Below are positions 3,801 to 47,896 of a stretch of DNA of 64,000 bases, in pieces. The notes beneath the pieces are model-generated. The model was not told the DNA's origin. It was given only the letters and a program-made list of their open reading frames with translations, and did not search any database. Numbering within the stretch: the stretch's first letter is position 1; each line of letters starts with the position of its first letter. The stretch is taken from positions 6,699,464-6,763,463 of the forward strand of contig CM049320.1 of assembly GCA_026874595.1 (NCBI GenBank), in the 5' to 3' direction. A program made the translations under genes and the position numbers. This DNA comes from Sipunculus nudus (Eukaryota > Annelida > Sipuncula > Golfingiida > Sipunculidae).

Positions 3801-6172
3801 AATGAGAGTTACAGTTCTTCACAAACTCAGAACAGGTTAGTACTGCCCGTCAAAACAAAGGCGGCTACAATAGTTAACAACTGTTTATTCAGTCGGGGAG
3901 AAATTTTACCTCGTTCGGAACATTTACACTCATAGGGTCCAGTTTTCATACCAGACATGTTTAATATTCATTGTTTGTATGGATTCCTTCTTACAATATC
4001 ATGGTATCTGCCAAGGTTTCCATCTAAATCCGTTTATTTACTACTCTACATCTGTTTGAATATGCTTGTACTGGGCCCTATCGATGGTTCAAAACATAGC
4101 GCGCACACCTAATGACGAATCCAGATGTTTAGGCGTCAGACCATTGTTTATTATTTCATGTTTCTTGTCTTTGTTTCACAGTTGTTACACATGGCACTTC
4201 TGATTTGGCAGTGTTGTTGTGTTGATTAAATAATTGTGCACTGTTTTTGCTCACACACAGAAAAGTGACAATGTATTAAACAGGTGAAATTTGAGATCCA
4301 TCAGCCATGACAGTTTTGCTGGAAAACGTTTCACCCAAAATGAACTAATATTGTGAGTTAATGCATATGTTTTTTTTTTTTTCAAATAATTACCCTACTA
4401 CTTGTGATGACGAATTTGACTTTGGTGTTACTCAAATGACTCCGTACATTCCATAAAATTATCATATCACAATTGATTAACAAAAATGCTACTAGACAAC
4501 CCACCTGAGACATAAACAAAATAACATCAAAAGCACCTTCTTACGGTGGTAAAATTAAAAATTAGATACCTTTATATTCTACCTTGAAATGGGCCCAGAA
4601 AACGAAGTCCCCCTCTGTTACTTTGAGGTTTGGGCCTGGGAAACACAGACTCTCGTCCACTCTCATAATGTTCTTGGCGAAGTTTTCGTACTCGTACAGA
4701 GGACAGGAGTTCACGTCAACAGACTGACCCACAGTAGAGTTTAGATCTCCTACCGCCGAGTCTGGTTTCTTTACCACTGTAATTAGAGCAAATGATGGTT
4801 ACTAGGAGTCATGATTTCTGCGTCTTATCAAGCTAATTGGTTACTTGGAAATGGTAGGACTTTTAAATAATCATTTATTTTAACATTTCATTGACTTTAA
4901 GCTTGAACCTTAAGGACGGGTTCCTTTAAGAACCTCTCGAGATTTAAAAAAAAACTTCTATGGTTCCATCTTGAACCTCTTAAGAGGTTCCTTACGGAAC
5001 ATTTTAAGGTTTTTATGGTAGACTGAGTTTGAATTCTTGAAAGGTTTTTACCGGAACCTCTTGTGTAGGGTTCTTTCCAGGTTTTACTTTTAAAAAAACA
5101 TTCTACGATGTCATACCATTCGTTTATAATATATTAATCCAAGCTGTATTACGACTGCAAGGTTTCTTGTAAAGTTACACTGACCGAACGTTTGGCTGAG
5201 ATATTTCAGGAAACAGATATTTTATACGCACGTGATATTTAAAGACCAACTGTGGTGGAATTTCAATAATGCCGGGAAAAATATCCGACTTATTATTTCG
5301 TGCGCACGAGATATATATTAAAAACAAAATTTCTTTTAATTATGTCCCTAACGGGCTCCATAATATTAGGAAACTTTTTTTTATTTTTTCATGGTGAAAG
5401 ATATTAACTCTTAACAAGAATAACTTTCAAGCGATATGATCAAACGCGAATTGTTGGTTCGACGTCCTCAAACATGAGAATTAACCTACCGTCTTAATTT
5501 TTAAGCATCGTTCTTACAAATGGACGTACCGGTCTCTCATGATTTCAAATTTCCGTCATAGTATACGGTAAAAGCAAGAATAAAAATATACGGTGGCCGG
5601 TAAGTGCCACAAAAAAATATTACGTCATGCGCACGATTAAATATCTCGTGACACAGCATAAATATCTCATGCGCATGAGTAATAAGGTGGAGCTCAGGAA
5701 TATTTTTTCGCGCGTAATAACTCGTGCGCACGACATAGTTATCTCTTGGGCGCGAATAAATTATTTCGTGCGCACAAGTTCATAAGTCGTGCCCACTACT
5801 CGGATTTGTTCTTGGGGCACTAACGAGCCACCGTGAAATAAAGCTGAAGGAAATCCATTTAAATTCTTCTTTACAAAAAGATGAATAAACACAACGATAA
5901 TCACAAACAGTATACGATCTAACTGCCTCTGACAGCGATAAAATTCAGGTTTCAGATGCATGATAATGAAAATATAAGATAAAATGATACGTCAAATATA
6001 CATCTCAGAACATGAAATGTAATTTTTAATGACTGTTGAAAATGATAGATGTCGCTAGTTTGGTTGACATTTGCATTTGCCCGTATGGTCAATCTCTAAA
6101 TTTCTTTTTATGTATGGATGGGTTAGAAAATTCTTTGTCCTTACCTGCCACAATACGGTTCTCCCCAACAAC
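379..6172 (-). CDS. Copy A of an unassigned five-exon family; exons 2-5 only, exon 1 not found
   Basis: Four minus-strand segments line up with exons 2-5 of the complete copy B (50948-63013). They are 6145-6172 (28 nt), 4570-4776 (207 nt), 3329-3441 (113 nt) and 379-510 (132 nt including TAA). Each internal boundary has AG/GT sites, and the phases run 1-1-0 exactly as in copy B. Shared features include VVGENR, YEYENFAK, FVFWAHF and VKVF near the C-terminus. The reading frame is open throughout, and the divergence from copy B looks like protein-level divergence rather than decay. I do not recognise the family by name. The last ~90 residues resemble a muconolactone-isomerase-like ferredoxin fold (inference). 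No ATG-bearing exon 1 is visible on the minus strand upstream of 6172. The matching exon 1 sits at 44438-44569 on the opposite strand, beyond an inverted repeat that also contains exon 2. As laid out here the gene would lack its start and promoter. Confidence 0.75.
511..2084. other. No gene seen; TA microsatellite and a small tandem duplication
   Basis: Holds a long TA run (about 735-798), a ~33-bp direct duplication with TTTTCGGGGTCATG (about 1088-1145), and a GC-rich patch at 1680-1760 with repeated AAGCCGAG-like words. Short open frames here have no recognisable protein features. This lies upstream of copy A exon 5 on the minus strand and so forms part of intron 4. Confidence 0.6.
2085..2327. 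repeat. 121-bp tandem duplication
   Basis: Two near-identical units (2085-2206 and 2207-2327) beginning AAGACCATTAACCCATG and ending GAAAATATGGTT. They differ at only a few bases, so the duplication is recent. Confidence 0.9.
2395..3275. repeat. Degenerate AGGTCA/TAGGTCA array
   Basis: Dozens of scattered AGGTCA or near-AGGTCA words, often spaced as AGGTCATAGGTCA (e.g. about 2459 and 2640), consistent with a decayed 7-bp satellite. It includes a ~59-bp tandem pair at 3001-3119. It is located within copy A intron 4. Confidence 0.75.
3329..3441 (-). CDS. Copy A exon 4
   Basis: Acceptor AATACAG and donor GTATGA flank a 113-nt exon, one codon shorter than copy B exon 4. Reads KSVDQYLDIMREE early and LYKCVFKTE at the end, aligning with KTTEELLALWKDE and VYKGVFQRE of copy B. 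Confidence 0.75.
3442..4569. other. Copy A intron 3, nothing further recognised
   Basis: An AT-rich intron between exons 3 and 4 with no coding similarity that I can recognise. Confidence 0.6.
4570..4776 (-). CDS. Copy A exon 3
   Basis: Acceptor ATTACAG and donor GTATCT flank 207 nt, identical in length to copy B exon 3. Key shared residues are KPDSA, CPLYEYENFAK and TEGDFVFWAHF. The exon starts by completing a Val codon split with exon 2. Confidence 0.78.
4777..5564. other. Copy A intron 2, with GGTTCTTAAGAACC-like words
   Basis: 4900-5095 contains repeated imperfect palindromes around GGTTCY..AAGAACC. Near 5298 is one copy of the CGTGCGCACGAG motif that is frequent in the neighbouring inverted-repeat arm. 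No coding sequence is seen. Confidence 0.5.
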
Positions 6173-6480
6173 CTACAATTTAAGAGATATTGTTAAAATA
6201 TATGGCCAAAACCAGTGCCCTTAGATCCAGTTTTTAATTCTTATAACTAACTTCAGTCTCTTTTATCGGTTTTGAGATAATTTCGTTTGACTGATAATGA
6301 CTTTCTTTGGTTTGTTGCATGATAAACCATTGGCATGGACGCAAGGTCGGAAAAGGGTTGTTTCTATTAAAGCTTGCGTCGCCGCGTACCTATAAATACA
6401 CCACTGTTCCTGTCTTGCGTCGACGCGTATGTAAAATACACCGAAATAAAATATATTATATATATATATATATGTATAAC
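5565..6480 (+). repeat. Left arm of ~0.9 kb inverted repeat
   Basis: Matches the reverse complement of 46970-47896 along its length with small indels, at roughly 90% or better by eye. It contains copy A exon 2, a cluster of palindromic TCGTGCGCACGA-type motifs (5620-5780), and the end next to a TA microsatellite (6455-6475). Similarity ends near 5565 and within the TA repeat. Confidence 0.85.
6145..6172 (-). CDS. Copy A exon 2 (28-nt microexon)
   Basis: A 28-nt exon between an AG acceptor and a GTAAGG donor, reading VVGENRIVA plus one base. The same microexon is found in copies B (57695-57722) and C (47281-47308). It lies inside the left arm of the long inverted repeat, so it is physically duplicated with copy C exon 2. 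Confidence 0.72.
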
Positions 6481-6919
6481 TCTGGAGAAAAACAACACTA
6501 AAAATTCACAACAGTCTGTTTCACGGGATGCTACCCGATCATCAGGTGAATATGGTTAGAATGAAGCTAACGACGTGGTTTGAAAAGCCGAGACTTTACG
6601 AGAGTACGAGATTATGCTTTGTGCGATTCGGGGGGCGGGGGCATGTGAAAGACTGACACTGATCCTATTGTCCTCGGGGGCACAATAGGGTTGGTCGGGG
6701 TACACGTGCGTTACTGGAACATAACAGCTCAAAGAGGTTATTTTAATGTTTATATATAATATAAAGATATATACCAGGATGCTCAATTAGCATATTAAAC
6801 TGATTATTAATAGGGTCTATGAAGCAGTGAACATATTAGTAGTATACATATGATATAAATACACATATCCTATGAAAATACACAATATACAAGGCACAAA
6901 ACAATATAAGAGGCAAATA

Positions 6920-7060
6920 TACTATACTATACTCATACCAAGTGGAATCCACTCGGTAAACTCACCATGCTGTAGTGGTAACGTCATGTCCCTCAACACT
7001 GCGAAGCAGTGAGAGAACACCTACCTGAACAGGTTAGTCTGCCCAGTGGATCCTTTTTTT
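6920..7060 (+). other. Possible Pol III-type small-RNA or SINE fragment
   Basis: GTAGTGGTAACGTC resembles a tRNA-like A box. CACTGCGAAGCAGTG can form a perfect 6-bp stem. ACCAAGTGG/CCACTCGGT and CAGTGGATCC recur at the ends, and the stretch stops at a T8 run typical of Pol III termination. No clear B box is present. The identity is uncertain, and a worn SINE head is as likely as an RNA gene. Confidence 0.25.
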
Positions 7061-8620
7061 TGTATATGACATGCGTTTGTATATTATTTCTGTAAAATTA
7101 ATGTATTACCTGTATTTAAACAAAGAATATAAACAATTACCATAACTCGAGTGGGTGTAATTGAAATGAAATATTATATATTACTATTTTTTTACAGATA
7201 CATATCATGTGGAGCAAGTAATCCCTCCAAAGTGCATAACGTTGGGTGATGACTGAAAAATCCTCTCAGATATGTTTAACATTTAAGTCACCCTTGTTGG
7301 CTAAGCGTTTTTTTCAGATTCGGTTAGTCTCTATGAAGAGTCTAGCTCCTTTAACAGGACCTGTACATAAAATTATTATGTGACTTTAATAAACTATGGC
7401 ATTAATTACCTGGGTAACTTTTCAAGTTGAATTAGCTCATCTTTGAATTGCCCTAAAAGATAATCCACGATTACAGCATTTCTTTGCCAGACTTTGGCAC
7501 ACTGCGATGACAGCTCTAATTCAAGGAGCTTTCCAAAAGCGGGGGGGGGGGGGGGAGGGGGTCGCAGGCAGGGGGTAAGTGGGCTACCTACCTTCGGCGC
7601 AACCCCCCCCCCCCCATCCCCATACGCTGTTACATGTCTCATTTTATCTGTTTATTTTTCCAAGTTATTGGTAATAAATGTTCATTTATTTTCCATATAA
7701 TTGTTTGCAGAAATGATTACTGAAACGTACACCATTAATAATTTTCGGAGCCAATGTTCTTGGTCTCAGATGGTCAAAGGTAGAGGTAAAGGTAAAGGTC
7801 ACGGAGACTCATGTATACGGATTGTTTTCCTTATATCTTGCTAAATATAATCATAGCCACTTCAAATGTAGCTGATTTGCATACTCTTTGGCTATTCCCC
7901 TCACTACAAAATAGGCTATTTGTTATTATGGTACTATTTGTACCGACATCATTTTTATTAAACTGTCATATAATAAGTATGATACATAAATTTATATTAA
8001 TTCATAATTTAACTAATTTTTTTATTTTATCGAGAAAATGAGAATTAACTGTAATGATAATATGAACAGTTTACTACGTAATGACGATGAAAGTTATTAT
8101 ATCTTCTCTCGCTTAGAACTTTCCTTTCTCCCGGTACGAGAAGATTCTTGAAAGGTATAGGACAAAATATTGGCCCATCAATATGCCTACACATATAGTT
8201 TTGCTTTGTTCTTTCTTATCCAGGTCATCATTAATGTCGCCCAGCACAAACAATAGCAAATTCAATTCCAAAGAGGAGAAAACAGAACGATATAGTCGGC
8301 AAATATGTTCGATGGATTATAAAAGTTTTCTTTAAGCCATAACTAGAATCATTTTTGTTTCCCGAACTTTGAACTGAACTTAACATTCCATTACCTCACA
8401 ATAGATAGTAAACTCTTCTTCATGGTTCCTGCTTAACACATATCACACCTCCATGTAATCCACAGTGGTTCTGTTCGGTTAGAACATTATACCTGAATAT
8501 GTTTTACTTTTACTTTTCAGAAAAAAAAATATCCAGATTGTCATCATTTGTCAAATATGCTTCAGCAAAACACATCACATCAGTGCGATTGAAAATGTGA
8601 GCCTGTCTAGTAGTCAAAAG
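7061..8620. other. No gene seen; G-run and C-run pair
   Basis: AT-rich sequence apart from 7541-7615, where a G15 run followed by more G tracts faces a C13 run about 50 bp away. Open frames crossing it are low-complexity Gly/Pro artefacts. Confidence 0.6.
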
Positions 8621-11600
8621 GTCTAACTTTTTTGGCCGAAAATAATGTATATTTGAATGACCATTGCCTGTCGGCTTGGGGTTCCTTCCGTCCGACTCAG
8701 TTCATCAGTTCTAACTGTATTTTGTCGGATATCCTGCGTTTCATCTTCAATTGTTTCGCTAGCATCTATTCTACCAGCTTCAAAATCTACGATATATGTC
8801 TTCACACGACTTAATGCAACATAAGCTTATCCTTTCCCCAACGCTTCACCTTTTTCATGTTCACAACAATTTTATTCACCTGGCATTTGTAGATTTTCAC
8901 TGCCCATGCTAATGCCTTTGGAAATTGTCCTCTAGCAATCTTTCAATGTCTGTTTTTCTTAATTCATATGTTGCTTCATGTCTCCTTTGGGATAATCCTG
9001 TTTCCAGAGACTACCAAATAAGGGACCCTTTCGAACAAATTCATCTTGAAATTTCACCAAATTCGGTTAAATATTTTCACTGGTATGGTTTACTATCTTT
9101 TGAACTGATCCTATAACGCCATTGACGAGTCCATCAGACTTATCGATGCTGTATGCAAGCATGACTCTGGCGCCAAGTGTCAATACAAAAATCGTATGTA
9201 AACCCGCCTTTTCTGATCGCTTTTGTAACGTGTTCATCTTCTTAGAATTGACGTGCCTAGCACTGTCAGTCTTATCATCTGATGCATGAATGTAAATCCG
9301 GTCCATTCATGAACACATGATAAGCTAAAACATCTTCCTTTCACTGTTTCCTGTTGAAACTGTGCTTGTTTCTTATTTAACTGCGAACTATTCTTTGGTA
9401 TCCATCATCAGCTAACATTTGTCCCTCGATCTGGGTTTTATATTGCGCAATAATTTTAGAAATATTGATCAGACTTGGAAATTTTGATCAGTTCTGTATT
9501 AGCGTCAGTATCCTGCTGGTCAATGTCTTTTTCTACCTTTACACCTTCAGCTTCATTTTGCATGCTTTAATTGTCATGTTTAGCAAAAGGTGCAACATTT
9601 GCCCACGCATGTTCAAGCGGCCCAAACCCTGCATCGTTTAGAATTGCTTCTTCCACATTTCTTAATTTTCTATGTATTTTTAATCATTTGTAGCTATCTG
9701 GTCCTGTATGTGAATGTTATGCGACGAAAAATAAGGAACATCCAATAGGTCAACATTTCGTTACGACATGGTACTTGATACAGCAAGGGTTTGCCCGATA
9801 GAAGTCACTTTGATCTTTTCCAATACAAAACTGTTGGAATCTAATTATTGCTGAACGTCTTCGTCTTCATACCGCCATTTTTGAATTTGATCTGTTTTGG
9901 TAGTTCTGCTGAAACATCCTGTGGTACATTATCGATATCCAGTACAATCGGTACGCTGTCGTTTTCCTCCTTATTCAAACTTCCGTGTCTCACTTTTTAG
10001 TTAACTGCAAAATCTGATAGACATGGATTTTCTTTACAGTAAGGTCTCAGTGAGTATCTTCTAATGACATTGCTCTGGAAAATGTATTTCTTCGTTATCT
10101 TCTTATTCATCCAGTTCTTTTTGTGGTTTCAGTTCAGCAGCTCGCACATCTTTAGAATCTGTATTTACAAACAGAAACTCTTTTCTGATCTATTTCATAG
10201 GAATGGATAATTTTCTGTAAACAGCTTAGTGAAACTGATCCTACACATCGAAGCATGGATTTAATTGTTCTTTGTACCCTTTACAAACTTGTTTTAGCAG
10301 TTCGTCTATACCTTTATATATATATATTTTGTTTTATAGGCAGCAATGTGAAATAGCACATGAGTACGAATCTATGATGTTCAGTGTGTCAATGTTTGCT
10401 GCCAAGCTTTCAGTATCACTCGGTTTTAAGGATTGATCAGACTTTCTGCTGGTAACCTCTTTATCACTATTGTTTTGCCTTTTTGTGATACCAATAGCTC
10501 TTGAATATACTCTTGCAGAGAAACCTTTTTCCAATGTGGCGTCTTTTGACGTATCCTTATCAGAAATTACATCTTTCACTTTTTGGAGTACACTGGATGC
10601 ACATGTCTTCTTCCGTTTTACCATTTCATCACCTGGTTCCTTCGCGATGACAGAATTAGATGGTCTAAGAAAGCTGAACCTATGCGGTCCTTTCTCCCTG
10701 CAATAACCTGACTGAGTAATTCCTCGATTATTTTATTGAACAGTTGCGCCTTCATCAGCAGGTATTGCACAAATTATGTATTTGTCAACATATGATGTAG
10801 CTACTTTATTTGAATCAGAATCAACTCTCAGGCGCATCTTTTATCCATAAGCGTGTATATGCATGAGGAGAACCAGGAACCTGAAATTCTATTCGAATAA
10901 CGTAAACAACTTTTTCCGCTAATGGTAGAGCTTTTGATTTGAAAACATCTCTGATCAACAGTTCTGACCTGTACTGAAACTGTCGTGCAGCAGTCACTTG
11001 GTTCCTTCTCAGCCAGTGTGATCTCTCAGCAAAAAAAAAAATACTTGTTTGACATCATCATGAGTCTATAATGTCCCATACCGTCTCGCTATTTTTTAAT
11101 CTCTTATGCAAGTGTATGTCAGCAACGGAAACTGTAAAATACCGTTTATGTTTAAAGCTGTCGAACAATGCTTACAACGTTAAATTCAGATTCGAAATAA
11201 GCAAGAGTTTTCTTGACGTGTTTCGACATTCTATATGTTTAGTCTGGTTTAACAAAACCTGCCATCTTGTCTACATTTTAACAATGATTTCAGTGAAACG
11301 TTTCCCATGAAAGTTTGATATACTAGCAAATGAAAATGTATTAATTAATATGACTTGTAACTTGCTGACATTCGCTTGCATATTGTGCAGTCAAAATGTT
11401 CTCAATAGATCTTGAGAAACTGCCATCAACATCAAGCAATCTTGGATTGAAATATTGTCGACGCTTCGAGTGCAGAGGCCGTTCAGGTGTCAGGGGATTT
11501 GTCCCCTACGGATAATTGTAAGGCTTCCTCAAAGTTAGGAACACTCATAATTTGTAATAGGTTTTGCTCCATTGGCTGTTGCAAAACTGATTATTTTGTT

Positions 11601-12540
11601 GAGCAATCCAGGACCTTTATTGATCATACTTGCTTCATATGGCAGCCCAGGCACTAGATGCTTCTTCAAATGCATATTCATCATGTTCTCTGAGGTCTTC
11701 GTCATATTAAGTACATGACGTTTCTATCACCTATCTCAACGGCACTTTGTAAGCACGCTGCACTTGCTTCGTCGTCTTTTCGACCATCATGCTGATTTGT
11801 TTAATGGCTCATATATCATAGAGTGGGACTGTCTCTGAGGTCCGAGATCAATATCATTTTCTTTTACAATGTCGCGGACACGGGGTAAGGCAAGGTCCGC
11901 CCCTCGATATATGAAATATTCAAGATAGCCTAGTGGGCTAGATGGTCACCTCAATTTAGAATTCTTAAGGCATATTTGTAAATTATCCGCTGGATTTCTC
12001 TTTGCGTGTCCCGATCAATTTTTATAATAACGACCAAATCGTCAGTAATGCGCTGTTTCTTGTTAAAATTTGCAAGGTCTTCACTTTCCATTCTAGCAGC
12101 AACACTGTCAATGTAGTTTTCCCTGTTTTAGTCATATAGTTAGGCACTTGAATACGTAACAGAACGAAGTTTATATTTGTTTTATCGAACCTCTCGTAAA
12201 AAATAAGTAAAACATACAATATCCATCTCCGTGAACATTGAAAAACATGCATCTTACTCTGAATCGCCATGGCAAGTTCTTTTATAGTCATTTTGAGAAT
12301 CACTGACAACAGTCACAGAAACAGCTTAAACACGGTCTTGCGTTTCCTCAATGACGTTTCCTTGTCAACTATTTATTTCATTTTCAGTTACCGGTTATCG
12401 TGATGAAAATTCATTTTTGTCTGCCAGCAAAGCAGCCTCCCAAAGGGATCATTTGTCTTATCTTTCAACGATTTTTCATTATTGTCAATATTTCAATAAT
12501 GTGGACTTTCTTTTTTCAATCATCTTCGTCCTCTGAACCT
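8620..12540 (-). mobile_element. Decayed Helitron-type element with PIF1-like helicase
   Basis: Minus-strand fragments in changing frames read like the PIF1-helicase proteins of Helitrons. From N to C they are DVDGSFSRS..ILTAQYASE (about 11390-11470), a segment with GPLEHAWANVAPFAKHDN (about 9580-9640), HVFMNGP (about 9302-9325), LGARVMLAYSIDKSDGLVNG (about 9115-9180), FPKALAWAVKIYKCQ (about 8870-8925) and AYVALSRVKTYIV (about 8775-8810). In canonical PIF1 proteins MNGP continues straight into the Walker A GTGK. Here it runs, after a frameshift, into sequence just before the GARVML motif, so the ATP-binding core is deleted. A TAA stands where a Gln normally precedes AYVALSR. Many stops confirm inactivity. 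The Rep nuclease motifs and the terminal structures (5' TC, 3' CTRR hairpin) were not identified, so the limits are approximate. Confidence 0.7.
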
Positions 12541-14226
12541 TATCAATGCACATGTAAAGTTTGATTAAAATCCGTGAAATATGTGTTGAGTTATCGGCCA
12601 GTAAAGATTTTTGCCAAAACTATGGTATTCCCGACTTTGTCTAGGTATATAGTTAAATTTTGTAAAATAAATAGTATTATTTTATTATTATATAATATAT
12701 GTTTAAATTTTTGTGATCAATGAAGGTACCAAATATTACGCATTTGCCTCTTTATGTAATTTGTGCAAATTTTGTTTGGCAAGTTTGTCTTATGTAGGTA
12801 TACTCGCGATAATTCAGGTGGACAGGGGTAGTGGAACAGACTATAGTTAATGACGGAAAACTTAGTTATGAATCACATATATTGGTCATTCTTTTGAACT
12901 CTCTAAACTCACTTTGCAGCCTCCCAATGCAGGCTATTGTTTCAGAGATATTCTTGAGGTCACATCATATCACCTTTTTACGGTGTTCCTGGTCAGCTAT
13001 TTTTCTGTATTCCAATGTTTTTCCCAATAAGATATCTTTCTGTTAGTTTTGATTTCCCGAGTAGATTGACGATTTATTTGCTCAGTTGAGGTACATGGAA
13101 CCATCAAGTTTACCGCCCTACAATCCCTGAGGGACGGAACAGTTGCAAATTGTGACGTGACCATAGACACAAAGGAATGTTTTTTCTTGCGCAACCACTG
13201 TGCGGGTTAAAATCCCTCACCGACAGTCTTGCACCTGCGTTACGTATCACGAAATAGTCGATGCTAAGATCATCGTCCACCAGGAGGTGCCACATGCGAG
13301 GTTGGATTTTGTGGGTGTATTGATTTATGTCTCTTACAGTCACACATAATCGCGCCAGCAGTCGGGTGATCCTATGACGCAACGCCAATGAAGTACTGGA
13401 AAGCAACCATAAACCATGAGCGTCCAAGCAGGGAATGCAACCAAAAGTAGCTGGTCGTTTCTAATGGCACCTTACATGTACGTTCTGTTGTTCCCCTAGC
13501 AGTGTTATACTGACCACCTTCCAATCAGGGGCTATTCTAGACAGGTTTGACTTTTTTACTCGACAATTTTGAAAGAGAACTGAAAAAGTACAGCTTCTCC
13601 TCAAATCAGAAGCTAAGCACATCCGGTCCAATTGCCTGCTGCCCTGTTGTATTCGCGCAGCACATCTTGAAATATACCGATCTGTCCGTCCATTCTATCA
13701 TATCTTCCCTGACCGATGTCCTTTTTATCCGTAAAATTCATTGAAATAGTTATAAATAGAGAATGTATTTTGTGGACAATAAAAGTATTAAAAGGTCCCA
13801 TTTTAATTATTAAAATTTGAGTATTTAAAGGGTTAGCGGGTTAGGCATTGCCATCGTGGCGACGTCATCATTGTGAAACTTGGAAAAAAAAAAATAAAAT
13901 TGTTAATCAAGATTTAATTATTACGTCAAAGGCTTTCCTATTTTCAATATGTGGGTGTAACCATGGCATATCTCTGAGCACCAAGCACTCTACTTCCTTT
14001 TACCAATATGTCGTGGCTAAGATTTTTTAAAGCTTCCCTACGCATAGTAACCGATTGTTTCGCGTTTCATGATACTATTCAATAAAGACACACAGCAAGG
14101 AAGTGACCCACAATCGTGCAGTAGATCATTTGAAGGCAGCAATAGCTGTCGATGAGATCTCTTATCTGTGAATTTCAATATTATTATTCTGTAAAGAAAT
14201 TTAATGCTATGCACAACACGCTCCAA
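12541..14226. other. No gene recognised; part may be an unclassified repeat
   Basis: 13100-13430 is less AT-rich than its surroundings and has open minus-strand frames (e.g. 13110-13427), but the translation matches nothing I recognise. The rest is AT-rich non-coding sequence. Confidence 0.5.
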
Positions 14227-14252
14227 AGTTTTGCTACGGCCAAATATATGGT

Positions 14253-14305
<53 letters not shown>

Positions 14306-15180: not shown

Positions 15181-15181
15181 C

Positions 15182-15606: not shown

Positions 15607-16275
15607 AGACAGGAGTTGTATTGGTGAGGAGTCAGACTTTCTGGGTTGTATTATAAGGGCGAGGAGTCAGCCAGTCTTTCGGGGATGTATTGTAAGGGTA
15701 AGAATTTAACCAGACACTCTGGGCTGTACTGTAATGGTGAGGAGTCAGCTAGTTTTTCTGTATTGCAATGTAATGGTGCGATGTCATCCAGACCACCTGG
15801 GTTGTATTGAAATAGTGAGAAGTCAGCAAAACTTTCACTATTGTATTGTAAGGACGAGGAGTCAGCCAGATATGCTGGGATTGTAATGGTAAGGAATCAG
15901 CCAAACGTTCTGCATTGTGTTGTAATTGTGAGGAGTCAAGCAGACTTTCGGAGTTGTATTGTAAGGATTAGGAGTCAAGCAGACTTCCGGAGTTGTATTG
16001 TAAGGGTGAGGAGTCAAGCAGACTTTTGGAGTTGTATTATAAGGGTGAGGAGTCAAGCAGACCTCTGGGTTGTATTTTCATGGCGAGGAGTCGGCCATAC
16101 TTTCAAGATTGTATTGTAAGGGTGATGAGTAAACCAGACCTTTTTCGGTTGTATCCTAATGGTGAGAAGTCAGCCAGATTTCCTGGGTTGTATTGTAATG
16201 GAGAAGAGTCATATAGACTGTTTGTTTGTATTGTATTGCTGAGGAGTCAGCCTTAATTTCTGGGATTAACTGTTA
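15607..16275. repeat. 39-bp minisatellite, about 17 units
   Basis: Units resemble GTTGTATTGTAAGGGTGAGGAGTCAGCCAGAC with variation, and a stray unit lies at 16365-16400. Because 39 is divisible by three, open frames appear on both strands with 13-residue periodicity (e.g. CIVRVRSQADFRS), but no gene signals accompany them. Confidence 0.85.
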
Positions 16276-16400
16276 TGAGTAATGGTACTGTATGGTCAAT
16301 TATCCTGTATAATTATGATATATATAAAATAAAATAAATATAAAATTTTTTTTTTCTGTTAAGAAGTCAGCCAGCCTTTCTGGGTTGTATTTTATTAAAC

Positions 16401-16785: not shown

Positions 16786-18007
16786 ACACCCCAAGACAGA
16801 GCAAAGCGGAGAGGAGCCCATCCTTGTCATGTCTTCTAAAATAAATGCAAAAATTTTGATTTTTATTGTTTTAATTGAACTTTCCTTTGTTATGTTAACT
16901 TTTTATATATCTCTCCAAGATCTACCTCTTCAGTATTTCTCCTTGAATTTTATACCACATAGATTAACCAGAATTGCAGGGATGTTTGGAACGTTCTTTT
17001 ATAGTGATCTCACAAACACATCCGATGATGAAAGGCGGCTAAAGAAAATTCTGTTTTGGACCCCTTTCATTTCTACTCCTGATTATGGATTTGGATTTGG
17101 ACGACGTCCCTTTCTGGATCGCAACTGCACCTACACTAAATGTGAAACGACAAATAATCGATCAGAGTTCAATGCGAGCCATGCTGTAATTGTACACATG
17201 AGGAACATCGGTTCCCCATCTAGAATGCCAACATTCCGGTTTCCATGGCAATATTTCGTATTTCTTTTGGCGGAATCACCAATTCACAGCTGCAGAATGG
17301 GAGCATTTAACGGGTTTTTTAATCTAACCAACACGTACCGTTATGATTCGGACATTAATGGACGATACGGTTATTTGGTGAAGAAACGAACCGAGAAAAT
17401 CCCACAAAAGCCGTTTGATTACTCTAAAGGAAAAACAAAACTGGTTGCATGGTTTGAATGTAACTGTCATACTCAAAGTATCAGAAGACAATACACAAAC
17501 GAACTTCAGAAATACATAAACGTTGATATCTATGGTAGATGTGGCCCCTTGAACTGTTCAGGCAGAAAAGTTTGCTATTCTATGTTAGAAAAAAACTATA
17601 AATTTTATCTGTCCTTCGAGAACAGTATTTGTAAGGATAATGCTAGAGAGAAATTGTGGCGTGTACTGGAGCTAAACATGGTGCCTATAGTTTTAGTTTG
17701 GTTTGAATACAAGAAATACCTACCTGATCACTCGTTCATCGATATCAGGGATTACAGATCTCCTTCTGAATTAGCAGCATATTTAAGAAAACTGAATTTG
17801 AATGCAACATTGTATAACCAGTACTTCGAATGGAAACAATATTACAAAATAGACACCAAGACTCACGCTATATGTTACCTTTGTGAATTTTTACACACAA
17901 AGATAAATTTTCATAAAACCTATGAACACTTAGATAAATGGTGGATTAAGGATCAGAACTGTATTGCACCAAGTGAATACTTCAAAGGGCATGCAAACAT
18001 CAGTTAA
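16786..18007 (+). CDS. Alpha-1,3-fucosyltransferase-like protein (GT10 family)
   Basis: The coding sequence is 16829-18007 (392 residues), a typical GT10 length, in one exon. A T-rich tract and TTCAG at 16771-16785 indicate that a 5' leader intron is spliced 43 bases before the ATG. Residues 9-29 are a hydrophobic signal anchor, as in Golgi type II enzymes. A variable stem follows, then the acceptor-binding half (LFWTPF at 75-80, ESP at 149-151, YRYDSDI near 170-176). The GDP-fucose-binding half carries LVAWFECNCHTQS (205-217), VDIYGRCG (232-239), YKFYLSFENS (257-266), REKLW (273-277), SFID (302-305), and the Cys-rich tail YLCEFLH...WW...C. Sequons include NAS, NLT, NCS and NAT. It would transfer fucose from GDP-fucose to GlcNAc of N- or O-glycans; linkage and acceptor cannot be read from sequence. 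Oddities: ECNC replaces the usual VSNC, and DNAREK the usual DYVTEK. The open frame suggests a functional gene. Confidence 0.88.
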
Positions 18008-36796: not shown

Positions 36797-36798
36797 TG

Positions 36799-36853
<55 letters not shown>
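36797..36853. repeat. TA microsatellite
   Basis: Uninterrupted TA dinucleotides. Confidence 0.9.
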
Positions 36854-36858
<5 letters not shown>

Positions 36859-38090: not shown

Positions 38091-38258
38091 AGTTATATAA
38101 ATATAGAGGAATCAAATTTTGTCAGACATTCATATTACTTATTGTTGCACTGATCAGGTAAGACTGTCTGATTGAAATGGCATAAAGAGCATGTAGCACG
38201 AAACTACGTAGTAGTAAAAATGTCCGACAAAATTTGATTACTCTTTATTAATATAACT
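38091..38258. mobile_element. MITE-like element with 40-bp terminal inverted repeats
   Basis: Ends 38091-38130 and 38219-38258 are inverted repeats with about four mismatches in 40, beginning AGTTATAT and containing ATCAAATTTTGTC. It spans 168 bp with no coding. A target-site duplication is not obvious. Confidence 0.65.
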
Positions 38259-39900
38259 ATATTCATTTGTCTGACATAGCAGTTTGCAGCGATTCCTTTC
38301 AAACTTATAGAGTAAGCCTACGATCCGTCCGTTTGTCTTGAGTTTTGTAAAAGGCCAAGGTCATAAAATCACTTCAATTTCGCACTTTTATATCCAAGTA
38401 GACTATTGATCATTATATTCATCTCCCTTTTTTGAATTATTCTAAGCAATTATTGCCACAACCTCCACGTTTCCCCTTCAAACAAGCGTTCGACGTCTGG
38501 TCGTCAGGTCTGAAAGTGTCAGTGATCCAGACCAATGTGATAACTGCCTTTGCATTTTGACAACTAACCTGCTTCACACTGGCTTGAACAAATGAAAATG
38601 CTTATCTCACGCATGTTATTCACAACACATTAATATTTATTTCATGCAAAAACTTAATGTATACAGCTAGATTTAAACTTAGTATCTCCAAAATTGTGTA
38701 AAAATCTGCGTGATCTCTGTAGTGCACGCACTATAATATAACATGTTTTATTTTTGAAGATGTTTTGTTAAAATTCTTTAAATTTTTGAAAGCCGGGTCC
38801 GTTACAGAGTAAAAGCTTTATATATAAGCATATAATCTTCAGTATAATCCTGGATCATGACACTATCACTTTTCGGAATATTCCATTTTTATATTTTAAG
38901 AGTATTCAAGTTACCTTGTAACTCGCATTTAAATGGCTTCCATTTAGAACCACTGGACAATAAGTTTGTCCTAAAGGTAGTTTGGTCTATGGTCAATATT
39001 TCACAAATACCTTATCAACCATATACAAATAGGAGTAGTGTTAAATGCTGTTATCTGTATAAACACCAGTGGAGCTTGAGCTGACCAGTAATTACCCAGG
39101 TTATTTTTTTTTTTAATATAATTCAACTACTTTGCTAGAACTGCTGACTCTCAAATGGTGCACAAAATTGTATTGAAGTCGATAAAAAGTGTGTTATCAG
39201 AATAAACTCTAAAGTGCATAATTATCAGTGAATGCAAATATATGCACGTGTAAAATAAATCAAGGACACCTACATCCAATCTTACTGCATCATCTTTTCC
39301 CGCTGTTTCTCTGTATGTATATCCACCACATACACGAGCAGACTTCAATAAACGCCAGAGGTAGCACACATCTAAAGCCGTCTATTTTGTCTACTCCAAG
39401 GAAGTTCAATATTCACTTCTAACCTCAAAAAAGGAACCTGTTATAAACAGAAAGGGGAGTCTGTAACGAAAGTTCTATGTAAAGTCCAAATTTTCTTTCT
39501 TTCTCGTACGCGGCTGACATCTATAACGTAGATAACTGGAAATTGAGCTATTTTATATAGCAAATTCCCCCCAAAAATGGGCCTAAAAAGTTCAGTTTTT
39601 ATATTTGTGTAGACACATTTATCATACATTCATAGTAAAATAATGACGTTTTTATCCAAAATTTAATATTAAGTAAATTTTCATTCAGCAATATATTTTT
39701 TTCTTCAATCTATTATGCATATATTCAATTGTGGCACCGGAAGTGAAAAATTAGGGAAAGGGATTTTCAAATATAACTAATACAGAAAGAGTAAAATATA
39801 AAATGCATAAATCTATAATGTGTCTGGATTTAAAAACACAGAATAAACCAGATGAAATATAGCTTGAAGTCACATTTCAAATATAGATCACACTCACCAA
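38259..39900. other. No gene seen inside the gypsy interior
   Basis: Short open frames only, none with recognisable motifs. Confidence 0.45.
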
Positions 39901-41942
39901 GCTACTCAACGTTGTAAAAAGTCATGCTGAAGAGTCTTGGGTAAGTTACAATAATCTTAAATCTTGGTTTTTTGGGGCTACATTGAAACTGTTTATGCAC
40001 ATAAAACAACGCTTATATCATGATTATGTGATGACGTGTGAAACACATTATCCGGACATGGATGATGTAGATCGACTCAAGATATCGTTCTTGACAAGAG
40101 TGATTCCGTGCACCCCTATTTCCGGCAGTATTAGACAGAAAAAAATGGGGTATATCCAGCAGTATGGAAATATCTTTTTATATTAGGACGGAGATCAACT
40201 TGGTTTAACTAAAACCATCCATTATTAAATAATCATGGAAGATCGAACGCCTATGTATCAGCTATAAAAGAATGTACCTTCACAGCTCTGGAATGAATAG
40301 GTGCTTTTTCAAAAATGCATCATTACTGAGCTCATATTTTGTGTCACCAAAAGTCTTTGTAGAAATAACAAGACTAACGGATGCCCACTCACGGAAAGCA
40401 CATTCTGCTGTGAATAGAGTAAGTGGATTTGATGTCTTAAGTCAATACGCAACAGGTACTTCATTATCTATATTACAACAAAACAGCGTTTGGTAGGAAA
40501 TAGGTGTAAGCATGTATAGGGATAAACTTGTCAAATGTTTGCCACAAACTCAAAACACTTTCATCTGAATGACTTGCTAAACGTCAAAGAAGTTCAAGTT
40601 ATAGGGAGATGTACTCAACTAAAACAACACAGTACCGTAAAGCCAGCTAAAATGCTAGAGTCCTATTAATGACAAAATTGCGTTCACCATCATGTTGGAA
40701 AGTACCCTCATTTTGGCATTTGCAAAGAGGTACTATGAATATCAGCTCATGACAAGACAAACAAGGTCACCAATTCGTTGATAGAGCCCTCGTTCTGATG
40801 AGGACCTACTGCTACTGGCCAGGTATGGACAAGGTAATCAGAACCTATAAAGCCCAGTGTGAATCAGATTTAATTCGTGTAGAGGGCAAAGTAAAGACCT
40901 TATTCAGTACTATTGAGCCAACTTCTCCACTGAAAGTGTTTGAAATAGACTTTTCTCTTTTAAAAAAAAAAGGCTACAAAGGGTATGAAAAATGTATTTG
41001 TCATGATCACACATTCCATAATTGGATAGTTGCTGTACCTACGAGAGATAAACCTCCTAAAACAGTTTGAAGAATCTTAGTACAAAATAGTTCTTTACTT
41101 TTGCTACACCTACAGGTCTACACTATACCCAAGGCAGATACTTTTATAAAGTCAAATAATAAAACAACGTTGTCCCCTTTATAGTCCAATGAAAATAAAA
41201 CAAAAGCATATCCCCTCAGTCGAACAGATATTGTGGAAGGTTTATAACAATGATCCGCTAAGAACGTTACCTATACAAACAAACCGATGTTGGCCTGAAT
41301 ACCTCACAGAGATGGCCTATGCTTATAATAATACACCCAGCACAAGCACAGGTATTTCGCCGTTCTACTTCCTGTATTGAAGAGACAAAAAACTTCCATT
41401 GCCAGCCTTCTTGCTCTAGGTAAGGATTCTCCATCAAACAGTTTACCATAGCGGGTAGCTAGTCACCAGAGGAGGTTATAATATGTGAACCAGATGTTAA
41501 GGAAACATCTTGCTCAAGATGTAGAAAAACTAAACCTTTATGGAGACAAATCAGCCGATTATTTTAATTCTATTTTGGACAGAGTGTGTATTAAAGAGAA
41601 AAAGGTTTCCAGGGACACGATAAAAATTCAAAACGCTAAATTGTGAAGTGAAGTTTATAAAATGGTTGATACAATGGTTGAAAGAGATGTTAGTCAGACC
41701 AGTTTGGAACTTTTAAAACGGTCAACGTATGGGAACTGAAAGTATCTCCTATTAACTCCTCAACAAAACCAAAACGACTTATAATCTCAACCAAACCAGA
41801 ACAACGAACGACACCTAGAAAACATAGAGCTCCATCTACCAGCTCAAGTCAGAGTCAATAACTATGTACCTATCATTCAGCACTAATCGAGATAGTTCTT
41901 TCTCTAATGACCCCGGTCACTCTAACACAAATACTCCTAATT

Positions 41943-43242
41943 CAGAACTCTAAACAAATACTGATTCAAAAGCCTTGTGAACCACATTAAGGGAGAGCAC
42001 AAGGGTCACTGAAAGGAAATACTACCATCACAGTTTGGTAAAGCATTTTAATTACATGTACTTTAGCAAATGCATATCAATATCATTGTTATGTGAATAT
42101 GAAACTGCGCGAGGTCTTGTTTCCAGTTAATTGAAAATTCCACTTGTATTAGGGGTACCCAATACATATGTTATATTCGTTTTATTACTCAGGGAATGGT
42201 TAGTAATGGTTAACGTGGATAAGAGTGTGACGGTAAATTGATAATTTAGTTGCTTGGTGTTTCAAACATATTATATTCACTGTGTAAAAAAAATTGGTCA
42301 TAGTGTTATATTCATAAAGTTGCTCGTAATTAACAATAAGGTATTCCTTAATAATATTGAGTATGAATATATTATTATTCACATGAACAGTTTGTTATAT
42401 TCATAAAGTTACTATCATTAACAATAAGGTATCACATAATTATTTTGAGTAAAATATTTTATTATTCACAGAAACAGTAAATTCAATAGTGCTAACCAGG
42501 TGGTATATATATTTCTGATACTGTTACATATTTGAAGGTTAACATGTCACTGCATTCCTTATATATTATTGTAATATAGTTCTTAAATAATCATACAAAT
42601 TAAGAATAGGTGTGGCCAGATATAGTCATTTTATTCATCAGAATTAGCACATAGGCCAGAGCTCTAGTTGCTAGTTAGGAGTGGCCCCTTCACATAGTTA
42701 TGTAATGTCACTGAAGGTGTAAAGGTCCACAGGGGGCAAAGAGTCAGTAGTGTCGCGCACCGGCTAGGGAATAGCTTGCACATCTTCATCTAGTAAGTAA
42801 GGAGAGACACCTTAAAGATTATAGTTAAGTTGTATTAATGCATCAAGGGTATGTTTGTATTGCATGTGGGATTTCTGCAGCCTGTCATATTGACTTAATG
42901 AATTGTTGTTGTGAACTGTACAGCAATGGCCTATGTATCCCATACCCTTATTTGTATTAATCCCTCAGTAATAAGATGCTGTCCATAAGATGGGTAACCC
43001 CTGATTGGTCAAAAGATAAATCTGTAGCTATAATGTTAAAATTAGTGATAGTAGCAGTCAGTTGTTTCTGGGTGGTGAAGCTGAGCGCACGCAACCTCCA
43101 ACTGTAATATACAATAGATTTTAGTGTGTTTTACACTATTCGCCGTGTGAGACCTCTGTTTGAGTGCCAACTGGTGTGTTTTGGAGAGTGCACGTGAGAG
43201 ACCGCTTCAACTGGTCATGACTTCCCGCCCAGTAAGGCGCTT
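41943..43242 (+). repeat. Long direct repeat, right copy (probable LTR)
   Basis: Partner of 35335-36573, longer by one ~65-bp block around 42155-42220. It directly follows the integrase-side coding remnant, as expected for a 3' LTR. Confidence 0.8.
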
Positions 43243-44149
43243 AAGATGAAAGGCGACCAAAGAAGTAAATCATTAACCTGTATGCCTAGCTAATGTGGTC
43301 AGCTATAGCTCATCACATTGAACCATGCTACATGTAATCCTTTCATTCAGATAGTATGTGTCATTTACAGAGCGGGCTTCGTATTTTTTGTGACTATTGG
43401 TCAAAGGACAAGGATATTGAAACCTTTAAATCGTCATTTCCTAATAACTGTTTTTTTAAAAAAAGGCAACAACCACCTCAACCTCTTTATTTGCCTTTAC
43501 GTTGTTATTTTATGAGTTGATCAAGTTTTCTTGTTCTTTTGCCAATATGTCAGTTCTTGTGTTTAGCTGTTGTTGTCATTTTTCTTCTTTTGCGTTGGTG
43601 ATTTCCTGGCATTTATTCAGATAGTATATGTCATTTTTATTGTTGATTATCACGCCAGTTCTCATGATAGTTCAAAGTCTACTTGCACCGGGCGTTTAAC
43701 AATTCCATGACTGTTACTTATAGGTCATTAAACGTAACCCCGGCCACCTGACCCTGGGCAGTGTAGCGGAAACGCCGGGCAAACGAATCGTCCAACCGTC
43801 ACGCTGCCGATGAACACCCACAAGGCCATATGCAGTGTTCTTGCTGTGTTCCATTTTCAGGTGAGATATTCAGTGTGTCTTTATTTTTATTCCATATTTC
43901 CCTACGTAATTTCAGTGATAGTCTTTTTTCTCCTCATTCTTCTTGTATTTTGTTATATTCATAACAAAGTGTATCATATATGTACAGAGGGATATAACTT
44001 GTATATAATCCCTTTTGATGATACGAATTGGAACTTCATCACCATGACATTCCATTCTTGGTAAAAGGTATTTACTGTTATTTTGTTTTTTTTAGTCCAT
44101 ATTTTATATAGACTGGTCATCTATCAGTACACGTAATTGAGATCTACGT

Positions 44150-44210
<61 letters not shown>

Positions 44211-44437
44211 GAAAAAAATGGGAAAGAAATTTATATATAAATATAGATAGCCACTTTCCGACATTAAAAGTGTTATGGCTGGATAAAGTTAAAAATATTT
44301 GTAAATATTCTTTAAATCATTCAATCGCTATATTAAACGGCGTGGGACATATAAAGACGATCAGTACTGGTAAACTTTGAGCAGGCACCCTGTGATGCCC
44401 TGTATCTCTTGCAGTTCCTGACCAGAGTCTGTTCAAC
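43243..44437. other. Upstream of copy C exon 1; TA microsatellite
   Basis: TA repeats at about 44150-44208. CTGTATCTCTTGCAG at 44400-44414 is a good acceptor for a 5' leader exon of copy C. No other gene is seen. Confidence 0.5.
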
Positions 44438-44569
44438 ATGGCGGCGTTCAGCGGACAGGAGTGTATTTGTCTGTTAGATATCAGCACTGTACAGGGCTGT
44501 ACTGATGCTGACGATATTTTATACAGGGCTGCCAAGGTGGTACAACCTCACAGCTCCTACGTGTTCAAG
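44438..44569 (+). CDS. Copy C exon 1 (start exon)
   Basis: Reads MAAFSGQEC at the start and SSYVFK at the end, matching MAAFRGQEC and SSYVFK of copy B exon 1 at the same length. The start is chosen because both copies begin with the same MAAF and because the codons upstream do not match. Confidence 0.78.
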
Positions 44570-46968
44570 GTAAGCGACTCTCTCCTCTCTACAAAGAATA
44601 TTGCAGGGTCGAAATGGGTCCTGCAAAATAGTTTCCCCGTTAGTACACTTTTTAAGAAAAGGTTCCTTCAAGAACCCGCATTATTTCATCTTGGCCATGG
44701 TCCCTTTTGAAACACTCTTCACTGTGTAAAGGATGCATTTCCATTTGACGATATTTTATACAGGGCTGCCAAGGTGGTACAACCTCACAGCTCCTTCGTG
44801 TTCAAGGTAAGCGACTCGATCTATAAAAGAATTTTGCATGGTCAAAATTGGTCCCGCAAAATAGTTTCCCCGTTAGTACACTCTTTAAGGAAAGGTTCCT
44901 TCAAGAACCCACATTATTTCATCTTGGCCATGGTCCCTTTTGAAACACTTCACTGTGTAAAGGTTGTATTTCCATTTGGCACTCTGATGTTCGTGTCCAA
45001 AAATAAGGTTTCAGAACGGACTTGATCTCCCAAGATATTAAAAAAGGGTATAATATTTCATGAGGGCACACAATTATGCATATGTTTATTTTTGTGAAGC
45101 ATTGCTCCGCCTTCTGTGGCTCAGGGGTAGAGCACAGAACTCAAAGCCGGGACCTCGTGAGTTCGAAACTCAGCAGAGGCGGTCAGATTTTTCACGGTCG
45201 GCCCCCAAGGTTGGCGCTATGCAGGCTAAATGGAGATACATGTTTCGGTCATGTTTCACTCACAAACTGGAGCGCTTTTCCTGGGTTATGACTAAGAAAT
45301 GAGAATGACAGACACCCAACACACGCAGGAGTGGAATAACTGGCCGAGGTAAGCAAGGATAAAAGAGGCCAATCACGGTCACGTGGTTCGATACCGGAAT
45401 GGAACACTGCAGATTTACAAGGTTAAGACTGACCTGCGCATTACGATGAATAGGAGCGCCTCAATGCGCTTCTTTTACACATTCACAGATATATAAAATT
45501 AAATCTCGAGAAAAATAATATCCTTGCCACTGAATATTCAAGGCGGATGAATCTTGTGAACCCGATGGAGAAGTACTATAAGTTCTGAGAGGGTAAATAA
45601 TTGTCACTCGATTCTAACATCGTGTTCCCCGTAATATTATGAAATCAGGCAAACATTAAAATAACTGTATTGGTTCTATTTCTGGTCAATTTCAAAATGA
45701 TTAGAATCGATCTAGAAAATGTGGTTCATTTTTTTTTCTTATTATTATGTATTTGTTCTTATACTGGTCTCTAATCTTTTTACTCTAATGTTTTAGTTGA
45801 GTCGCGGGAGGTGCCCAATAACATTTCGGACACTTGTTATACTATACCAGTCTAATATCAGACAGAGCCTTCACGAAACCTTGCCATTTGACAACTTCAC
45901 CTAATGTTTTCCTATTACAACAAGGATTAGATGGCCATCTGTATTTTAAGTATTGGGAGGACCTTTGAACTGCCCATTCACCTACCCTTTATAAAGAAAG
46001 TACGTGATTTCTGGCTTACTCTCTGTATATATTAATTGGATTAGAGTAACATCTGTTGAGAAAAAAACAAAAACAAAAAAAAAAAACCGTGTAACGCCTC
46101 TGTTAAGGACCGATGATTGTGATTACCAACAACCTGTTTGTAAATACAGCAACGTTGACAAAAAAAAACCCAGAAGTTAGTAGATAAAATATTTTTGGAG
46201 GTTGAACGGTTACTTGTTGCAAAACACCATTTGAAAACCTCTTGCTTCTCAGACTAGCTGCCAAATTTCCTTGCTGAATTGCGTTTTGATTATTTGTTGG
46301 GCCCCACAAAGTATGAACATGTTTATTTAAAAACATAGCGAACAGCCTTGTGCGGTGATTTCGGCATTTTCGGGCTATTTTCAAAAAAAAGGTCCAAGGG
46401 AATATCTTTAGTTTATTAACGACAGATATCGGAATGGTCCCCTTTAAAGTAGATGCAATGTGTGCTAAGCCTTATGGCTCTCCATTTGCTTCGTGTAAGC
46501 TACACTTCGTGTAGAAACTAAATACTCGAGCAACGGTTCACTGCGTTTGAATTCATGCAATATGTCTAGACCTTATGACCTCCATCGAACCGTAAAATAA
46601 TATATAACAATTATATGATAGAATGAGAAATCTATCATCAAAGCTGGGTAGCGCCATCTAACGTCTGAATAAGGTACTTCGCGCACTGCAGTGAGAGGTA
46701 CGCCATATCTACCACGATTTCTAGGAATGAACTGCTGCACGGACGGCTTTGTTCAATATGAATATATATGTATTTATATGTATTCATAAATATATATAAA
46801 TAAAAATATATAGAGTGAAACTTCTATAAACTCAGCACACTTTGACTTGGCCAACCTGTCCACTTTACAGAGTGGACTATATGGGAGAAATATACAGGAG
46901 AAAAAAAGGGACGGTCAGAAACTGCCCCCTGTAAACAGGTGCCCTCTTGATGAAGGTGCCACTATAAT

Positions 46969-47006
<38 letters not shown>

Positions 47007-47308
47007 TTATTTCGGTGTATTTCACGTACGCGTCGACGCAAGACAGGAACAGTGGTGTATTTATAGGTACGCGGCGACGCAAGCTTTAATAGAAACAACC
47101 CTTTTCCGACCTTGCGTCCATGCCAATGGTTTATCATGAAACAAACCAAAGAAAGTCATTATCAATCAAACGAAATTATCTCAAAACCGATAAAAGAGAC
47201 TGAAGTTATTTATAAGAATTATGAAACTGGATCTAAGGGCACTGGTTTTGGCCATATTTTTAACAATATCTAAACTGTAGGTTGTGGGGGAGTACCGAAT
47301 TGTGGCAG
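44438..47308 (+). CDS. Copy C of the same family; exons 1 and 2 only
   Basis: Exon 1 (44438-44569, 132 nt) starts ATGGCGGCG and ends TTCAAG before GTAAGC. Exon 2 (47281-47308, 28 nt) reads VVGEYRIVA between AG and GTAAGG. Both match copy B in length and phase. A polypyrimidine tract and AG at about 44401-44414 suggest a spliced 5' leader. Nothing resembling exons 3-5 follows on the plus strand before copy B begins on the other strand at 50948. As laid out, this is therefore a head without a body. Exon 2 lies in the right arm of the inverted repeat whose left arm carries copy A exon 2. Joined by flipping the intervening ~40 kb, this exon 1 would complete copy A. Exons 3-5 beyond the window, with copy B nested in the intron, is the alternative. 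Confidence 0.72.
44510..44978 (+). repeat. Tandem duplication of the exon 1 3' half and intron start
   Basis: About 237 bp (44510-44746) is repeated head to tail at 44747-44978 with roughly 90% identity by eye. The second unit again carries the 3' half of exon 1 (44747-44806, ending SSFVFK) and a second GTAAGC donor. Both halves keep an open frame across the exon part. Confidence 0.85.
45108..45480 (+). mobile_element. tRNA-derived SINE, copy 2
   Basis: TGGCTCAGGGGTAGAGCACAG is a good A box and GTGAGTTCGAAACTC a near-perfect B box. It is followed by the shared CACGGTCGGCCCCCA and GCAGGCTAAATGG. The tail has CCGGAATGGAACACTGCAGAT. This copy best preserves the promoter and lies in copy C intron 1. 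Confidence 0.8.
45481..46969. other. Copy C intron sequence, nothing recognised
   Basis: AT-rich with A-runs. 46800-46970 is moderately GC-richer. No coding motifs are visible. Confidence 0.45.
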
Positions 47309-47896
47309 GTAAGGACAAAGAATTTTCTAACCTATCCATACATAAAAAGATATTTAGAGATTGACCATACGGGCAAATGCAAATATCAACCAAACTAGCG
47401 ACATCTGTCATTTTCAACAGTCCATATAAATTACATTTCATGATGTATATTAATGTATCATTTTATCTTATATTTTCATTATCATGCATCTGAAACCTAA
47501 ATTTTATCGCTGTCAGAGACAGTTAAATCATATACTGTTTGTGGTTATGGTTGTGTTTATTCCTCTTTTTGTAAGGACAATTTTAATGGACTTCCTTCAG
47601 CTTATTTTCACGGTAGCTCGTTAGTGCCACAAGAACAAATCCGAGTAGTGGGCACGACTTATGAACTCGTGCGCACGAAGCAATAAATTCTCGCCAACGA
47701 GATAACTATGTCGTGCGCACGAGTTATTACGTACCATTTGAAAAAAATATTGATTCCTGAGCTCGACCTTATAACTCATGCGCATGAGATAATTATGCTG
47801 TGCACACGAGATATTAAATCGTGCGCATGACGTAATATTTTTTTTCCTTGTGGCACTTACCGCCTACCGTATATTTTCATTCTTGCTTTTACCTGT
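46970..47896 (-). repeat. Right arm of ~0.9 kb inverted repeat
   Basis: Reverse-complement partner of 5565-6480, beginning in a TA microsatellite and ending near 47896. It carries copy C exon 2 and the same palindromic GTGCGCAC motifs. The divergence suggests an old duplication rather than an assembly duplicate of one locus. Confidence 0.85.
47281..47308 (+). CDS. Copy C exon 2 (28-nt microexon)
   Basis: Flanked by CTGTAG and GTAAGG. It differs from copy A exon 2 by Asn to Tyr in VVGEN/YR. It may be a leftover of the inverted duplication rather than a used exon. Confidence 0.6.

Follow-up and report, generated by a model that had tools for sequence, protein, structure and literature searches.

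A probable 135-kb inversion splits one member of a clustered gene family in Sipunculus nudus

Results

The stretch analysed here, hereafter the window, comprises 64,000 nucleotides of the Sipunculus nudus genome (NCBI GenBank assembly GCA_026874595.1), positions 6699464-6763463 of contig CM049320.1 (C15), and holds two incomplete copies, A and C, of a five-exon gene. Genome searches were run over the 1.43-Gb, 153-contig assembly, and the stretches examined were C15:6540001-6803000, the locus of an intact paralogue, E (C15:6807793-6827000), and some short pieces, including one 3.3-kb piece (L004) for locus F. Exon 3 of A matches 11 places at E ≤ 10, all of them in C15:6.54-6.97 Mb, where alone the family was seen; the window sits inside a single gene cluster. 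Six members are of the A type (A, two array copies and D on the minus strand, E and F on the plus strand) and five, all on the minus strand, are of the B type. The family protein has 203 residues plus a stop, encoded by exons of 132, 28, 207, 113 and 132 nt, with exon 2 running from phase 0 to phase 1.

Copy A lies on the minus strand, with exon 5 (stop included) at 379..510, exon 4 at 3329..3441, exon 3, an open frame, at 4570..4776, and exon 2, a 28-nt microexon encoding VVGENRIVA in phase 0 to 1, at 6145..6172. Exons 3, 4 and 5 were found by tblastn (matches 4777-4568, 3442-3329 and 510-382, minus strand) and aligned to relatives, exon 5 to D, E and the array copies, and exon 2 came from a splice-window scan and alignment. 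Copy C lies on the plus strand, with exon 1 at 44438..44569 (tblastn) and exon 2 at 47281..47308 (splice-window scan, alignment), the latter reading VVGEYRIVA, with an N to Y change at a residue that seven of the eight exon-2 copies keep. No exon 1 for A was found in the window by tblastn, the minus strand near 6-16 kb included; likewise, tblastn found no exons 3-5 for C in the window. A sequence-only reading of this DNA had described the two copies in the same way, with matching exon phases, and our searches bear it out, the five exons summing to 203 residues plus stop. The 28-nt exon is genuine: among 390 AG-28nt-GT windows scored on both strands, the best three were those of C (47281, score 43), A (6172, score 42) and B (57722, score 40), the next scoring 15, and the exon recurs outside the window in D, E, F, B2 and B3.

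The same reading had noted that each exon 2 is enclosed in one arm of an inverted repeat of about 0.9 kb, which blastn confirmed at 90.7% identity. It had proposed that recombination between these arms flipped the roughly 40 kb between them, parting exon 1 of C from exons 2-5 of A, and that the opposite orientation would restore an intact 203-residue gene. Our analysis retains the kind of event, a gene-splitting inversion with exons 2-5 of A inside the flipped segment, and replaces its partner, its boundaries and its mechanism.

The exon 1 that pairs with A was located outside the window. An intact exon 1, C', lies at C15:6567964-6568095 (+), 131.5 kb left of the window, within a stretch (C15:6567186-6570847, +) that is a copy of window positions 43652-47004, at 96% and then 89% identity. 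This copy stops in a (TA)n microsatellite, and the homology of A to C starts in the same microsatellite, which is uninterrupted in intron 1 of C (46978..47004; the C'-C match ends at 47004 and the A-C match begins at 46978). On the A side, positions 6479..7054 (-) are a fragment of a Penelope-like element in the (TA)n of intron 1, matching another genomic copy, L030, up to its position 610; the rest of the element, L030 positions 652-977, lies at C15:6570879-6571208, beside C'. The two matches, 1-610 on the A side and 652-977 on the C' side, are adjacent without overlap and oriented as expected once un-inverted, and no other L030 match in the 263 kb examined exceeds 90%, the one further match (C15:6770693-6771405) reaching 74%. 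Both halves end at a poly-G tract, which in intact copies lies between them, and 41 positions of L030, covering that tract, are lost. Because one element is cut between the C' side and the A side, the exon 1 of A is C' and not exon 1 of C; the uninterrupted (TA)n of C is the empty site for the insertion. We refer to the gene formed by C' and A as G1.

A second repeat, K, was cut by the other break, and its halves lie at the same two junctions. Its right half lies at 7055..7726 (+), and its left half is found inverted from C15:6571209 onward. Four other K copies were compared (C15:9.20 Mb, C15:9.199 Mb, C17:58.04 Mb and C15:6575464-6575998). In three of them the left half, taken as the reverse complement past the C' break, ends at positions 721, 784 and 659, and window position 7055 starts at 750, 814 and 686, respectively, leaving 26-29 bp of ordinary sequence lost at the break. 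The identities of the left and right halves agree for each copy (72/71, 79/80 and 75/76%), and in the first the matches run over 663 and 671 bp.

Each breakpoint therefore joins an element half to a K half: the right one at 7054..7055 (C15:6706517/6706518) and the left one, outside the window, at C15:6571208/6571209. From these we conclude that the segment C15:6571209-6706517, 135,309 bp long, was very probably turned around by a two-break inversion that split G1; from 7054 it extends to the left beyond the window, and the 40 kb between the arms is not the inverted segment. The two novel junctions are reciprocal, and the four ends rejoin to one earlier order through the halves of both elements (for K, in three of the four copies). 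Exon 1 of G1, at C15:6567964 (+), stands outside the flip, and exons 2-5, at window 6172-379 (-), stand inside it. Undoing the flip yields an intact 203-residue gene with an intron 1 of 3,995 bp, oriented as at E; the earlier prediction of a restored gene thus holds for G1 with C' as the partner. The earlier order was taken from the paralogous locus E in the same genome: in blocks of at least 80 bp compared with E, the A end of the segment is inverted in 21 of 21 (8,638 bp), and the C' side is direct in 3 of 3. Undoing the flip also makes two fucosyltransferase copies parallel, one inside the inverted segment on the minus strand (C15:6589283-6588114) and one in the window on the plus strand (16829-18004), which share 80% protein identity.

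The inversion is younger than the element insertion. Exons 3-5 of A carry private changes at 2 of 454 aligned positions, one of them amino-acid changing, with no stop and no frameshift, and the element fragment on the A side carries 10 in 565, a figure inside the 1.7-5.4% spanned by the other seven copies; both low counts argue for a young inversion. In the array, a 1-nt deletion in exon 3 that A lacks is common to copies U1 and U2, and exon 4 of U2 contains two stops. The intact exons 3-5 of A fit a recent loss, without proving past function.

C, by comparison with E, is a separate gene copy, G2, broken by a deletion of its own that is independent of the inversion. At E, exons 1-5 (C15:6808290, 6809525, 6811213, 6813594 and 6815191) are followed by a 3' flank X, a flank S and a minus-strand B-type exon 5 with its stop. 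Judged by this order, C has a deletion junction at 47893..47914 and is missing the rest of intron 2, exons 3-5 and X, whose counterpart at the A locus measures 9,472 bp. Beyond the junction come S (47914..51181), the 3' flank of gene B, which is direct at E and inverted near the 3' side of A in the array, and B itself (50948..63013, -), a complete five-exon relative found by tblastn and splice-window scan, with exons 1-5 at about 62882-63013, 57695-57722, 55079-55285, 53051-53166 and 50948-51079. All 13 C-B blocks of at least 80 bp are direct relative to E, and parts of intron 1 of C are homologous to E and F. Exons 1 and 2 of C belong together, because C, S and B keep the order and orientation of E apart from the 9.5-kb deletion. 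The end of exon 1 is partly repeated at 44747..44806 (+), as it is at C'; this repeat belongs to a tandem duplication of the exon 1 end and intron 1 start (44509-44978, 92%) that probably predates the split of G1 from G2, since C' shares it.

The inverted-repeat arms are ordinary paralogous sequence and not mediators of a flip. By blastn, 6478-5567 aligns with 46978-47893 over 929 columns, its gapless blocks measuring 244 nt (97%), 172 nt (94%) and 166 nt (89%). This is far longer than any other inverted pair in the window; the next two span 335 columns at 67% and 181 at 72%. The left arm (5567..6478) consists of part of G1 intron 2, exon 2 and part of intron 1, is paralogous to the C arm, and is colinear with E from 5816 to 6405. 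In the genome, 6000-6480 is found at six places: A, C, three cluster paralogues (74-79%) and one 37-bp microsatellite match, which is the only arm copy above 79% apart from A and C. On the inside the arms are bordered by the element in intron 1 of A, on the outside by the deletion of C; around exon 2, they are the only overlap left between the remains of G1 and G2. Their divergence is uneven, with 15 differences in 405 positions in the inner part, near exon 2, and 39 in 464 in the outer part (Fisher 0.005, with the cut point chosen afterwards), perhaps through gene conversion. Intron 2 of A and of C each contain, at about 5590-5834 and 47610-47869, an element that is absent from E; it is some 250 bp long and is bounded by terminal inverted repeats (ACGGTGGC...). 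Motifs CGTGCGCACGA occur at seven places in the window, six of them inside these two copies (14 strand matches against 0.05 expected, an expectation to be taken with the motif having been picked after it was seen).

The first cut element is one that we take to be Penelope-like from a short open reading frame (endonuclease C-terminus) and a hammerhead-like core. The short reading-frame piece has no Pfam match, and the hammerhead-like motif folds no better than shuffled sequences do (36 of 200 as good). Near the break, 37 Rfam matches were obtained, all below their gathering scores and none to a hammerhead, nearly all being microRNA models that matched a G-rich hairpin (7527-7674); known RNA families were rejected there on these scores. 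A first look through the genome gave 2,073 candidates for the repeat family of 6479-7054, of which 40 were scored, and seven of the eight copies read, the window copy included, adjoin (TA)n. An early idea, that 6451-7041 once adjoined S, from a copy near S2, was dropped in view of these 2,073 candidates.

Other features accompany the cluster. From C15:6640816 to 6705941, reaching into the window, runs a tandem array whose units, some of them incomplete, measure about 17 kb and are mostly 96-98% alike, each joining an A-type 3' half (exons 3-5) to a B-type gene 3' end; two units have decayed by frameshift or stops, and intron 4 contains a 123-bp minisatellite. A 5.5-kb palindrome, with arms 98% alike and 0.7 kb apart, lies at C15:6628554-6640283 inside the inverted segment. 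The fucosyltransferase gene of the window (16829-18007, +) is intact, single-exon and of family GT10 (Pfam E 5.7e-53), and a degenerate minisatellite accompanies it at 15612-16277. A frame at 9067-9306 (-) resembles a Pif1-type helicase (Pfam E 1e-4, 22.4 bits, cut-off 23.9) and is perhaps a Helitron remnant. Scans of the whole window gave no Rfam family at its gathering score and detected no tRNA.

An alignment of the joined proteins of G1, E, D, B and B3 spans 204 columns, those of E, D, B and B3 being 77, 74, 51 and 50% identical to that of G1. The family protein has no match in Pfam, none at E ≤ 1 in the protein collection and none in the PDB by single sequence, and its NCBIfam matches (E 0.06-0.1) are at chance level. 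A five-member family profile found one PDB chain, a chalcone isomerase (E 0.74, 55 residues); this single match was too weak for chalcone isomerase to be accepted as a relative, and is a weak lead for the fold of this unnamed family.

Discussion

The arrangement can be accounted for by the following series of events, whose order is the most plausible one rather than directly read. In the cluster, convergent pairs recur, each made up of an A-type gene (+), the flanks X and S, and a gene of the B type (-). Pair G1 would first have gained, in the (TA)n of its intron 1, a young copy of the Penelope-like element. Two double-strand breaks would then have occurred, one at the poly-G tract of the element, which may have been a fragile point, and one in a K copy 135 kb away, and the broken ends would have been rejoined crosswise by end joining, with small losses. 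Exon 1 and the promoter would have stayed on the plus strand at C15:6567964, while exons 2-5 were turned to the minus strand and left without a first exon. C and B, the neighbouring pair G2, would have kept the orientation of E, C losing exons 3-5 in the independent 9.5-kb deletion. The junctions agree with repair by end joining, in that deletions are small and at most 1-2 bases, judged by eye, are shared. Each of them joins a Penelope-like half to K, with the 0.9-kb arms away from the breakpoints, which is not what non-allelic homologous recombination leaves; nor is there the inverted duplication of staggered breaks, the elements having been cut with small losses.

Several observations weigh against this reconstruction. 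Gene D of the same cluster is also on the minus strand, so that orientation alone is no proof of a flip. The fall in C'-C identity from 96% to 89% beyond 45777 and the uneven likeness of the arms (15/405 versus 39/464) lack an explanation. Two of the three supporting K copies match over only about 135 bp on the left and 185 bp on the right, and the fourth, C15:6575464-6575998, fits the right half, but the left half finds no match in it at its end. Two inverted blocks between C-B and E, of 53 and 58 bp, fall under the 80-bp filter. Lastly, the arrangement is known from one assembly alone, which leaves room for a 135-kb contig placed in the wrong orientation, and long reads handle poly-G tracts, where one of the breaks lies, badly. 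Such an artefact would find further footing in the nature of the locus, a tandem array of near-identical units of about 17 kb plus the palindrome. We nevertheless consider it improbable: no gap letter occurs in the 263,000 bases of C15:6540001-6803000, both junctions included; the junctions run base to base between non-homologous sequences; and the loss of 26-29 bp of ordinary sequence at the K break is unexpected for a mere flip of a contig.

Recombination between the 0.9-kb arms fits the arms themselves, the strands and the exon phases, and the greater likeness of their inner part could reflect exchange between them. However, C, S and B stand in the order and orientation of E but for a deletion, intron 1 of C is partly homologous to E and F, and the cut element places exon 1 of A elsewhere; moreover, the inner border of the left arm is an element insertion beside a K half whose partner lies on the C' side, and because of this adjacency no arm-mediated flip has taken place here since the 135-kb inversion. 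An arm-mediated origin is hence highly improbable. A 40-kb inversion with staggered breaks would make the arms duplicated breakpoint sequence, and a duplication lying inverted at either end of the flipped segment is a signature known from Drosophila mojavensis (PMC3355041). Yet the duplication behind G1 and G2 greatly exceeds the arms in size, S next to the 3' side of A being about as diverged as they are (85-93%, nearest unit), and the outer arm border is the deletion of C. The order at E contradicts this origin, whose chance is negligible. Equally negligible is the idea that A and C' are unrelated partial duplicates, complementary by accident: the cluster does yield partial copies, such as the 3' halves of the array, but the complementarity would be needed at the microsatellite, the element and K, with orientations that agree at all three. 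An earlier reading, of a plain inverted duplication followed by losses that complement each other, was replaced once C' and the cut element had come to light.

The 135.3-kb inversion of G1 belongs to a known class, that of gene-disrupting chromosomal inversions. Inversions mediated by Galileo in Drosophila reportedly have mobile elements at their breakpoints, as the G1 inversion does. Had two copies of one element recombined ectopically, chimeric copies of it would stand at each junction; each G1 junction, in contrast, joins halves of two unrelated elements. The human HsInv0379, a 415-kb polymorphic inversion that disrupts ZNF257, is similar in that one break lies inside a gene of a cluster of similar genes and the promoter and first exons are moved away (PMC4591017). 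For HsInv0379, alleles were genotyped and a fusion transcript was shown, whereas the G1 inversion is described from the sequence of one assembly; for the latter, both halves of both cut elements have been matched. Inversions of chromosome 2 of D. mojavensis likewise involve gene changes at breakpoints and breaks among duplicated genes, some of them with ectopic transposon recombination or inverted duplications at their breakpoints, neither of which is found at those of G1 (PMC3355041). An indirect role has been suggested for Penelope elements in the context of Drosophila inversions (PMC6278893), whereas at G1 the Penelope-like element is itself the break site. In open-licence papers searched by topic, no locus resembling the G1 inversion was found.

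The locus thus offers a resolved, young, gene-breaking inversion whose two breakpoints can be read to the base, because each of them cut a mobile element that has other copies in the genome. It also illustrates that inverted repeats flanking a segment are no evidence of that segment having flipped. There is a slim chance that a route back is live: a 40-kb flip between the arms would join the promoter, exon 1 and intron 1 of C to exons 2-5 of A as a complete hybrid gene, and the cluster might in this way switch members off and on, or make hybrids, through successive inversions segregating in the population. As they stand, the G1 and G2 copies are probably both non-functional, two neighbouring gene copies of one cluster that were broken in two independent ways.

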